Assembly (NCBI RefSeq): GCF_034092415.1
Contig: NZ_CP139304.1
Coordinates: forward strand, 852,001-916,000
Reading direction: 5' to 3'
DNA length: 64,000 bases
DNA from: Prochlorococcus sp. MIT 1341
Lineage (GTDB): Bacteria > Cyanobacteriota > Cyanobacteriia > PCC-6307 > Cyanobiaceae
In this document: positions 37,995 through 41,181 of the stretch, in pieces
Numbering within the stretch: the stretch's first letter is position 1
Layout: each line of letters starts with the position of its first letter
The notes under the pieces: model-generated
Databases searched by the model: none
Told to the model about the DNA's origin: nothing
The model's input: the letters and a program-made list of their open reading frames with translations, nothing else
Position numbers and translations under genes: made by a program

Positions 37995-38762
37995 ATGCAA
38001 ACTTGGCTAAGTGATCTTGTAGGAGCCTGGATCTTTTATTCAATCCTTCCAGCCCCGAAAGGCCTAAAGCCAAGCTTCAAAAGCATTGCCCGTTTTGCAC
38101 CATTAATAGGAATAATTTTAGGAAGCATACAATCTGCCTTATGGATATTTTCGAATTATTTTGGATGGTCATACATTTCCTCCTCGTTGATAGTTATTGC
38201 CTTTGGAGCATTTTTAACAGGAGGCATACACATAGATGGTCTCATGGATACTTTTGATGGGTTAGGTGCTGGCCCCAAACGCTGTAAAGAAGCAATGAAG
38301 GACAGCCGAATAGGCGCAAGCGGAATACAAGCTTTGTTAATCATTATTCTCATGCAAATCGCTTCGCTAATTAGTCTGGGAGAAATGGCTATTTTCGCTT
38401 TACCGATTAGTTCATTCTTTGGTCGCTGTGCTCCTATATGGGCCATCCAATCTTTTCCTTATTTGCAACCAAATGGCACATCATTTTTTCACAGAGAAAA
38501 CCGAAATGGCATAAAAGATTTCATACCTGCCATATCAATTCTAATTTGCATCTTGATGTCTATGATATTTTTTTCTATCGGACTTCCGCTTCAAATATAT
38601 CTTCTCAGCTCCATTTTCTTTGGAATAGTCTTAAGTTTTGCAATACCAGAATATCTAGGAAGAAGATTAGGTGGACATTCTGGCGATTCCTATGGAGCAT
38701 CATTAGTCATTGTGGAAACATTAATTCTGACAATTATGGGATTCACTCTAAAAATAGTTTAA
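37995..38762 (+). CDS. cobS: Adenosylcobinamide-GDP ribazoletransferase
   Basis: Final joining step of cobalamin or pseudocobalamin synthesis, in the membrane. A 255-residue polytopic protein with the motif GGIHIDGLMDTFDGLGAG near residue 80 (metal-binding acids) and KDSRIGASG. The C-terminal GRRLGGHSGDSYGA is also conserved. It overlaps the end of the convergent kinase gene by 20 bp. Confidence 0.92.
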   Translation: MQTWLSDLVGAWIFYSILPAPKGLKPSFKSIARFAPLIGIILGSIQSALWIFSNYFGWSYISSSLIVIAFGAFLTGGIHIDGLMDTFDGLGAGPKRCKEAMKDSRIGASGIQALLIIILMQIASLISLGEMAIFALPISSFFGRCAPIWAIQSFPYLQPNGTSFFHRENRNGIKDFIPAISILICILMSMIFFSIGLPLQIYLLSSIFFGIVLSFAIPEYLGRRLGGHSGDSYGASLVIVETLILTIMGFTLKIV

Positions 38763-39858
38763 TTACAAAAGCATTTCCCTCAGCAGGAAGATCTGCGTGA
38801 AATAACTGAGGTGGAATTATCAATTCCAAACTACCCTCCATATTTTGAGCCATCTCCCTCGCTAAAGAAAGCCCAAGTCCACTACCTGCTGATTTCTTAC
38901 TAGCTTTTCCTCTAAATCCTTTTTCGAATATCTTTTTCCTCTCTTCTTTTGGAATCTCACTCCCCTGATCCCAAACAACTAATCCATTATCAAAAATCAT
39001 TAGTCCTAGGTCACATCCTAAAGGGCTATACCTAAAAGCATTTTCTAGAAGATTTGCAATTATTTCAGCCAGAGCCTCATTCCCAGGGGGGCAAGGACGT
39101 TCTGTCCATCTTGGCCAATCAGAAGGGCCATGCCATCTACGACCTTGAAGATTAGCAGTGGCAGATGCGCGATCGACAAGAGGAACTAACAATGAGCGGA
39201 AAGTTGCTGTAACAGTTTCTGAGAGTATTGGAGGCAACAACAAATGTGCTTGATCCCCATGAGCTATTGCAGCCTCCTGAAAGCCTATTAAATCCAATCC
39301 AGAAATGTACTGATCCAACTGGGCCTGCTCAGTAAGCAAACCTTGTACCAAATTGAGATTTCGGTTTTCTGGTCCTAATCTTCTTAGCAATAATTCAGCA
39401 TATGTTCGTAGTGCTGACAAAGGGTTTCGCAACTGATGCACTATCAAGCTTATTTGTTGTCGTTGCTGGCTTAGCTCCTGAATAAGCTTGTTCCTTTCCA
39501 CCTCAAGGCTCAAACAATGAGCCAATACCATTGCCGTAGATTGAAGATTCTCATCCAAGGAGTCAGGCCATAAGGGAGAAGAATGAAGGCTTTCAGCCCT
39601 TAAAACGCCAAGCAGTATCTGCCCTTCCTGCAAGGGATACCATCTCCTATGAGGAGATGGTTCACGCAAGTCCGGGTCCTCACCAACGGGTGACAAAACA
39701 TTGCCTTTTAGAGGCCATTCCCCAATTGCCTCAAGGCTTGGAGAATGCCCAGGAGTAGCTTGTGCAACATATACGACAAGATGCGACAACTGCTCCTCAG
39801 CTTGAAATGAGCTGAGTTGCTTTTGCACCAAATTCAGGAACCGATCAGAAAGCTCCAT
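38743..39858 (-). CDS. Soluble sensor histidine kinase (orphan)
   Basis: A 371-residue kinase without membrane segments. The N-terminal 120 residues form a GAF-like sensory region. The dimerisation box is LIVHQLRNPLSALRTY with phospho-acceptor His141. The ATPase part shows N-box NLLENAFRYSP, and GSGLGLSLAREM near the end. No response regulator is adjacent. It resembles the Hik2/chloroplast sensor kinase group of cyanobacteria in layout; that assignment is tentative. Confidence 0.85.
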   Translation of the reverse strand: MELSDRFLNLVQKQLSSFQAEEQLSHLVVYVAQATPGHSPSLEAIGEWPLKGNVLSPVGEDPDLREPSPHRRWYPLQEGQILLGVLRAESLHSSPLWPDSLDENLQSTAMVLAHCLSLEVERNKLIQELSQQRQQISLIVHQLRNPLSALRTYAELLLRRLGPENRNLNLVQGLLTEQAQLDQYISGLDLIGFQEAAIAHGDQAHLLLPPILSETVTATFRSLLVPLVDRASATANLQGRRWHGPSDWPRWTERPCPPGNEALAEIIANLLENAFRYSPLGCDLGLMIFDNGLVVWDQGSEIPKEERKKIFEKGFRGKASKKSAGSGLGLSLAREMAQNMEGSLELIIPPQLFHADLPAEGNAFVIKLFLE

Positions 39859-39934
39859 AGAAATTATTTAGGCCTTAACGCCGATAGAAATCAAATTGGC
39901 CAGAAAAGTTGAAAAATCAGAAAAAAGTATTAAG

Positions 39935-40042
39935 ATGTTCATATCGGCCAGTGAAATCCTTGCTCGTAAGGTTCGTGCAAAGCGTCCTCGCGGCATAACT
40001 TGCACAAAAAGTGCTATCAAAGCTACAGCAGAGGAAGATTAA
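39935..40042 (+). CDS. Candidate small protein, 35 residues
   Basis: An ATG-initiated frame of 35 codons, beginning MFISASEILARKVRAKRPRG and ending ATAEED before TAA, in the 340-bp space between the histidine kinase and DUF3155 genes. It is basic in the middle and acidic at the end. I recognise no family. It is the only coherent frame in this gap and lies just upstream of the dual-fold region, so it might be a small gene or a leader peptide. No strong ribosome binding site is visible. Confidence 0.4.
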   Translation: MFISASEILARKVRAKRPRGITCTKSAIKATAEED

Positions 40043-40048
40043 TCCTTT

Positions 40049-40140
40049 GCCTTAAAGCAGGTCCTTGATCAACCAACTAGTTGGTGGCATCTTAAGGCGT
40101 TGCATTGCATGCAACAACCATCAGACCGGCAAGCCTTAAG
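40049..40140 (+). promoter_or_regulatory. Candidate structured RNA with two mutually exclusive folds
   Basis: Segment 40091-40098 (CTTAAGGC) can pair with upstream GCCTTAA (40049-40055), enclosing the palindromic hairpin ACCAACTAGTTGGT (40072-40085). Alternatively it can pair with downstream GCCTTAAG (40133-40140), enclosing the hairpin GTTGCAT-TGC-ATGCAAC (40099-40115). The two outer stems share one strand, so they exclude each other, as in attenuators and riboswitches. Further on, CTCCT (40144-40148) could cover the AGGAGG ribosome binding site (40184-40189) of the DUF3155 gene. This rests on sequence complementarity only. Confidence 0.4.
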
Positions 40141-40198
40141 AAACTCCTTCACTAGAAACATCAAACATCTCTTTCCCCCAAACAGGAGGGCAAATTAA

Positions 40199-40567
40199 AT
40201 GTCTAAAAAACGGAAGCGGATTAGCCGAAGAAGACTTGCTGGCCAAAGGGTCTTAGCTCATGTTCCTACATACCATCTTGAAACAGGAGAACATAAGCCT
40301 GTCACAGCTGCAAGACGTTATATAGCTGAAGCAGGTCTTAAATCACCAGCATTAATTAATGTTCGTCGAAACGAACACACAACAGATAGATATTTCTGGG
40401 GTGAAAAAGGTCTATTCAGTGCTCAATATGCTGAAGAAAATCATTTCCTTTTCCCAGCTTTAAGGAACATTGTTGATTCAGTAGGTGAAGCAAACATGTT
40501 CGAAGGATTAGAGCTCACAGCTGATGATTGGGAAGAGATTGAAGAATACGAATATGCTTTTGTTTAA
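40199..40567 (+). CDS. DUF3155 domain protein
   Basis: A 122-residue conserved cyanobacterial protein of unknown function. It has a very basic N-terminus (MSKKRKRISRRRLAGQRVL), then a core with THLETGEHKPVTAARRY-like sequence, RRNEHTTDRYFWGEKGLF and EENHFLFPALR, and an acidic tail. The ATG is preceded by a full AGGAGG ribosome binding site at 40184-40189. The 5' region may be an RNA switch. The basic head suggests nucleic acid or ribosome contact, but no function is known. Confidence 0.88.
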   Translation: MSKKRKRISRRRLAGQRVLAHVPTYHLETGEHKPVTAARRYIAEAGLKSPALINVRRNEHTTDRYFWGEKGLFSAQYAEENHFLFPALRNIVDSVGEANMFEGLELTADDWEEIEEYEYAFV

Positions 40568-41181
40568 CCGAGACGACCTACAAACAAACTCTTAATTACT
40601 TCCTGAATTTGAGGGGTGATTTCATCCGGGATCCCATGCCCACCATCAAAAAGAAAAGCCTTGTTAGCAATTTGATTTGCAACTAGTGAAGCAATTAATA
40701 GCTCTGCCGCAGAGGGTGGAACTACATCGTCAGATTTGCCATGAAAAACAACCACAGGGGGCATAGTTGTTTTAGCTGACCAACCTGGGTGAGGGTAACC
40801 ACTACAAGAAATTATTCCAGCAAGAGGCAAATTACTACCAGTTGCAATTGCCATTGCACCTCCTTGAGAGAACCCAAGTAAAATCGTTTCAGAAAGCGAG
40901 ATCTCGATGGTCTCTAGATCCAACAAACGCCTCGAAAGTTCCTCGACAGCCTCAGGGACAGCATCCCAATCTGGAGGGAAGAGTCCATACCACTGACGTC
41001 CATATCCGCTTGAATGATTGTGGGGTGCTCTTAGAGCTATCAATTCAACAGGGAAGGGTATTCCTTCCAAAAGGCTCTTTCCCAAGGGGATTAGATCATC
41101 AACATCTGCGCCCCAACCATGTAAGAGGACCAATCGACGAGTCGCTCCATCAGGACTATTACAAAAAAGATCTGCGATCAC
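40564..41181 (-). CDS. Alpha/beta hydrolase (carboxylesterase/phospholipase family)
   Basis: An alpha/beta hydrolase of about 205 residues. It has RLVLLHGWGADVDDLIPLG (oxyanion HGxG region), nucleophile elbow GFSQGGAMAIATG, the Asp region VVFHGKSDDVVP and a C-terminal His in GGHGIPDE. The start is uncertain. The frame reaches a TTG at 41283, which would overlap purH by 35 bp on the other strand. I use GTG 41181, which leaves a short leader before the core. The ester substrate is unknown. Confidence 0.82.
   Translation of the reverse strand: MIADLFCNSPDGATRRLVLLHGWGADVDDLIPLGKSLLEGIPFPVELIALRAPHNHSSGYGRQWYGLFPPDWDAVPEAVEELSRRLLDLETIEISLSETILLGFSQGGAMAIATGSNLPLAGIISCSGYPHPGWSAKTTMPPVVVFHGKSDDVVPPSAAELLIASLVANQIANKAFLFDGGHGIPDEITPQIQEVIKSLFVGRLG

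Follow-up and report, generated by a model that had tools for sequence, protein, structure and literature searches.

A conserved structured 5′ leader RNA ahead of the DUF3155 gene in a marine picocyanobacterial family

The DUF3155 locus, its promoter and its leader

The window, meaning the whole stretch of 64,000 nucleotides that was analysed, belongs to a Prochlorococcus-like genome of 1.94 Mb. The structured leader described here occupies the spacer between a histidine kinase gene on the minus strand and a DUF3155 gene on the plus strand, and the locus comprises the following features:

38743-39858, minus strand: histidine kinase gene (Pfam HisKA and HATPase_c)
39909-39936, plus strand: sigma-70-type promoter, conserved, with TTGAAA at 39909-39914, TAAGAT at 39931-39936 and a 16-nt spacer
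39937-40064, plus strand: 5′ domain matched by the covariance model R1 (100.8 bits, E 5e-26, the window locus itself being in the training set)
39943-40198, plus strand: structured 5′ leader RNA of the DUF3155 mRNA, 256 nt, recognized by folding z-scores and ending at the start codon
40199-40567, plus strand: DUF3155 gene, 122 amino acids (PF11352, Pfam E 8e-48)

DUF3155 was found in 64 of 64 sampled members of the photosynthetic class of cyanobacteria and in none of the non-photosynthetic relatives listed in the same sampling, and it is almost absent from the literature that was searched. The N-terminus of the protein is basic and was invariant (MSKKRKRISRRRLAGQR...) in all 32 aligned orthologues, while the C-terminus is acidic. 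The AlphaFold model of the protein is of low confidence (pLDDT 54) and gave no usable fold match in the PDB, and with no sequence match either, no RNA-binding fold appears assignable from it.

The promoter at 39909-39936 was the only sigma-70-like site found in 39860-40600. One promoter-like site is expected by chance in this interval, so the weight rests on conservation: the 84 distinct DUF3155 upstream regions compared had a common promoter block, TTGAAA...AGTATTAAGAT, followed in most of them after about 80-90 nt by the core, AAAGCUACAGCAGAGG, and in 78 of the 84 an AGT(A/C)TTAAGAT block stood ahead of the core. The leader transcript is accordingly predicted to start at about 39942-39944. 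A start near 39943 would place the whole segment treated in the preliminary description of this DNA inside the mRNA leader; a start downstream of 40140, which that description had named as speaking against a regulatory element, looks unlikely, as the sole promoter found is conserved in nearly all relatives. The same segment misses the conserved 5′ half of the leader (39937-40050).

The leader is 256 nt long in the window and about 175-350 nt in relatives. When 65 non-redundant leaders were compared with shuffled sequences the mean MFE z-score was -2.5 and none was positive; the window's own leader scored -1.9, with background segments of the window at 0.22 ± 0.92. A single MAFFT alignment of all leaders analysed with RNAalifold yielded no structure, owing to misalignment, and group-wise alignments and a covariance model were used instead. 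This model, R1, was built on a sequence-only alignment of 30 sequences, to which the analyst added a structure (P1, P3 and P4). R1 matched at E 0.1 or better in 168 of 251 genomes of the family, nearly always in exactly one copy, and in 37 pairs of coordinates compared by hand the match and the gene lay on the same strand, the match beginning 258-316 nt ahead of the DUF3155 start. It gave one match in the window's genome, where no convincing second copy was seen. R1 found nothing at five distant DUF3155 loci (L131-L135), so that the leader appears restricted to the marine picocyanobacterial family. Scans of the leader against Rfam 15 at three settings matched no family, and the RNA appears to be undescribed.

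Structure of the 5′ domain

The elements recognized in the 5′ domain, all on the plus strand, are the following:

39943-39949: 5′ arm AUCGGCC, candidate 5′ strand of P1, conserved in sequence (AUCGACC in relatives)
40002-40014: hairpin P3, GCAC at 40002-40005 with GUGC at 40011-40014, identified by covariation and RNAalifold
40019-40034: near-invariant core AAAGCUACAGCAGAGG, comprising the P3/P4 linker and the 5′ strand of P4
40028-40050: hairpin P4, GCAGAGG at 40028-40034 with CCUUUGC at 40044-40050 and loop AAGAUUAAU, present in the full-length MFE fold

Across the 65 non-redundant leaders the core was invariant or nearly so. The proposed structure allowed 78% of cells to pair in the sequence-only alignment, compared with 34-39% when the alignment was slid, and cells with double changes numbered 15 against 6.2 ± 2.1 in shuffled controls. 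In a model-fitted alignment of about 80 matches, which leans towards R1 and takes in four wrong-strand matches, the covariation score was 0.249 against 0.128 for shuffled sequences. Most of the covariation support is carried by P3 and P4. For P3, 5 of 8 pairs showed changes on both sides in the sequence-only alignment, with covariation also in the model-fitted one, and in P4 81% of cells were paired, with two-sided changes present. P1 pairs covaried in the model-fitted alignment of the family and were without support inside Prochlorococcus group A, for which reason a universal P1 closing stem is not claimed for the window, where P1 itself is weak (3 pairs).

A three-way junction is formed in Prochlorococcus group A (n = 17), where P3 and P4 are enclosed by a long helix, P5 (GGUCGACUCAGC with GCUGAGUUGAUU). 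RNAalifold found P5 and P3 unprompted in this group, and the junction was 86% paired with 11 pairs showing two-sided changes against 6.2 ± 1.7. P5 on its own has no more double changes than shuffles, and this helix is supported chiefly by wobble changes and by comparison with slid alignments. The 5′ strand of P5, GGUCGACU, is also used by P1, and base changes that disrupt P1 generally leave P5 intact; no P5 strand is evident in the genus of the window. Judged by these comparisons, P1 and P5 are the better candidate for an alternative pairing than the pair of stems put forward in the preliminary description (see below). Taken as a whole, the domain resembles riboswitches in lying ahead of a gene and in combining an aptamer-like conserved structure with unpaired bases that are conserved too.

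Variants of the domain occur in particular lineages. High-light-type strains (L049, L074, L104, L105, L115) have a short leader of about 175 nt in which P4 is retained, together with a P3-like hairpin (AAAUAUGA/UCAUAUUU) of entirely changed sequence. One Prochlorococcus group, MIT 0701 and relatives (L051, L056, L026), has a tandem duplication within the leader, at about 1117-1290 in L051, that takes in the P3 unit together with the 5′ strand of P4, GCAGAGGUUGCACAAAUNGUGUCACCAAAGCNACA.

The 3′ half and access to the ribosome binding site

The 3′ half of the leader differs between lineages. In many Synechococcus and Prochlorococcus leaders it holds a recurring small hairpin, GACGU(N)CGUC (e.g., GACGUUUGGGCGUC), which occurs in several leader groups (L046, L087 and L102 among them) and was not seen in the window's genus. 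In the window the elements bearing on this half, again on the plus strand, are:

40049-40055: left arm of stem A, overlapping P4 in its 3′ strand; probability of pairing with 40092-40098 no higher than 0.08, and no conservation
40090-40141: stem B, 40090-40098 with 40133-40141, enclosing the hairpin 40099-40115; pair probability about 1.0
40169-40190: pyrimidine tract CUCUUUCCCCC (40169-40179), paired in the full-length MFE fold with the Shine-Dalgarno sequence GGAGGG (40185-40190)

The preliminary description had proposed a two-state switch in which CTTAAGGC at 40091-40098 pairs either with GCCTTAA at 40049-40055 (stem A) or with GCCTTAAG at 40133-40140 (stem B), each stem enclosing its own hairpin (40072-40085 or 40099-40115), and in which CTCCT at 40144-40148 masks the ribosome binding site AGGAGG at 40184-40189 in one of the states. 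All of these sequences lie where they were placed, and the complementarity of 40091-40098 to both sides is real and rare by chance: when the 156-nt segment was dinucleotide-shuffled, 0.3% of the shuffles had a 7-mer able to pair both upstream and downstream, as did 3 of the 819 segments of that length in the window. The palindrome CTTAAG accounts for some of this, a direct repeat of it being automatically complementary. Of the two pairings only stem B is predicted to form, stem A having a probability of about 0 in the full leader and not exceeding 0.08 when the transcript ends at 40100-40136, that is, even before the 3′ arm of stem B has been made. Stem A is moreover unconserved in congeners and overlaps P4. 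Pairing of CTCCT with AGGAGG had a probability of about 0.01 or less, and CTCCT at this site is absent from the three congeners. On this evidence a competition between stems A and B is highly improbable.

Compensatory change, which the preliminary description had named as possible support if seen in both outer stems, was found in stem B within the genus, as in L032 (UUUAAGGC/GCCUUAAA) and L034 (UUGUAAGG/CCUUACAA), while L033 has a shorter stem B with one mismatch and the lowest-energy fold of L034 is without the stem. The evidence for stem B is clear in kind and small in number (four genomes in the genus), and stem B is simply a stable, lineage-specific hairpin. What stands of the regulatory leader as originally envisaged is a structured RNA with covariation and an occludable ribosome binding site; the specific switch mechanism is not supported.

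No intrinsic terminator (hairpin and U-run) was present before DUF3155 in 39860-40600, and terminator-like sites were seen in only 6 of 65 relatives. A transcription-terminating attenuator was set aside for want of such a terminator and of mutually exclusive stems.

Unlike CTCCT, the CUCU-UCCCC tract beside the Shine-Dalgarno sequence is kept in 4 congeners. In the window its C-tract (40175-40179) could pair with GGAGGG, one mismatch being allowed. A hairpin of at least 5 pairs over the Shine-Dalgarno sequence occurs in 56% of relatives (ACUCC/GGAGU; GCUCC/GGAGC in L108; ACCCC/GGGGU in L112) compared with 30-37% in shuffles, the other 44% being without one, and it varies between lineages and is found in part of the family. 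At 19 loci the mean pairing of the Shine-Dalgarno sequence was 0.75, the same as in composition-shuffled controls (0.75), because the tract is C-rich; the enrichment of masking is shown only by the tight-hairpin test and not by energy alone. With mean pairing no higher than in shuffles, translational control is the likeliest output of the leader, but one that we infer.

Possible modes of action of the leader

It is fairly probable that 39943-40198 is a cis-acting structured 5′ leader RNA of the DUF3155 mRNA, the likeliest role of which would be control of DUF3155 translation, and the leader as a whole probably controls DUF3155. RNA polymerase would start at the conserved promoter and the 5′ domain would fold into P3 and P4 around the core, with P5 closing the domain in many Prochlorococcus. 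A faster-evolving middle region would come next, carrying stem B in the window's genus, followed by the pyrimidine tract able to pair with the Shine-Dalgarno sequence. A factor, be it a ligand or a protein, would bind the conserved 5′ domain and thereby make the ribosome binding site more or less accessible. Comparison of relatives establishes the leader itself, the conservation of its promoter, its linkage to DUF3155, P3, P4, stem B and, in one group, P5, whereas the transcript start, the action on translation and the sensing of a ligand or protein are inferences.

In a specific form of this explanation, the confidence in which overlaps with that in the explanation itself, the DUF3155 protein would bind the core and repress or activate its own translation. 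The invariant basic N-terminus of the protein makes autogenous binding attractive, and the exclusive linkage of the leader to one gene fits the logic of ribosomal protein leaders. The leaders of ribosomal-protein operons (L10/rplJ and S10 type) are likewise structured 5′ leaders tied to one gene or operon and act via access to the ribosome binding site, and by analogy it is plausible that the basic DUF3155 product is the ligand of its own leader, as ribosomal proteins are of theirs. Unlike these cases DUF3155 is not a known ribosomal protein, and the corresponding Rfam leaders do not match. The lack of an assigned RNA-binding fold (pLDDT 54, with neither a structural nor a sequence match) also counts against such a loop, as does the presence of DUF3155 in all sampled photosynthetic cyanobacteria where the leader model was found at 0 of 5 distant loci searched. 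Autogenous control is a tentative proposal.

A broader suggestion, in which less confidence is placed, is that the leader represents a new class of riboswitch or protein-sensing RNA of marine picocyanobacteria, the strand GGUCGACU alternating between P1 and P5 to control DUF3155. Slightly more doubtful again is its narrower version, a new class of metabolite riboswitch with the P3/P4 core as aptamer and P1 and P5 as the switching pair on their common strand. The core bases are unpaired and near-invariant, three arms (AUCGACC, GGUCGACU and AGUUGAUU) are mutually complementary, and P5 is usually kept where mutation breaks P1, all of which would suit a metabolite sensor. The element, however, precedes one gene only and occurs once per genome, whereas the usual riboswitch classes control several related genes, and to our knowledge DUF3155 has no metabolic role. 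Further points against it are that P1 lacks covariation support where P5 is strongest and that the window's genus shows no evident P5 strand. The cyanobacterial cis-regulatory motifs glnA, Downstream-peptide, psaA, PhotoRC-I/II and psbNH (Weinberg 2010, PMC2864571) are likewise candidates for structured 5′ leaders, and several of them occur in marine cyanobacteria. Unlike these the DUF3155 leader has no Rfam match, precedes a different gene, occupies a single locus and is not followed by a variable small ORF.

It is unlikely that the region specifies a separate non-coding RNA that is merely transcribed towards DUF3155. The element is long and conserved with its own promoter, and many Yfr RNAs exist in marine picocyanobacteria. 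One of these, Yfr103, is similarly a conserved structured RNA of about 300 nt, but is very abundant and multicopy, with seven paralogues in Synechococcus CC9605 (PMC5069720), while the DUF3155 leader is single-copy and linked to DUF3155; identity between the two was judged unlikely by copy number, not by sequence. Cluster 217 of an earlier survey, represented by one sequence only from MED4 and with no function proposed, is flanked by a two-component sensor histidine kinase gene on one side and a conserved hypothetical gene on the other (Axmann 2005, Table 1, PMC1242208). This is the gene neighbourhood of the DUF3155 leader, although the source names no genes, and the cluster may be the same intergenic region and so an earlier sighting of the locus; it was experimentally negative (PMC1242208), which speaks against an independent RNA. 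So do the lack of an intrinsic terminator ahead of DUF3155 and the strict linkage to that gene.

Least likely of all is a short coding gene or leader peptide in place of an RNA element: the open frame at 39896-40042 (...KATAEED) is present in the window, but its ATG (39935) overlaps the -10 box, an in-frame ATG follows the predicted start in only 3 of 65 relatives, third codon positions in the core are fixed (GCT and GCA in 65 of 65) where first and second positions vary, the promoter-to-core distance is conserved yet not in multiples of three, and the 65 leaders have no conserved start codon and no codon-like substitution. The same frame runs through the leader and could be mis-annotated as a small gene.

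Prochlorococcus and marine Synechococcus have very few protein regulators, which makes conserved cis-acting RNAs a main candidate for control. The leader is conserved family-wide and DUF3155 across all sampled photosynthetic cyanobacteria, both without known function. As such the leader, with its core, the model R1 and a reporter design, offers a concrete handle on the role of DUF3155 and on the signal that controls it.
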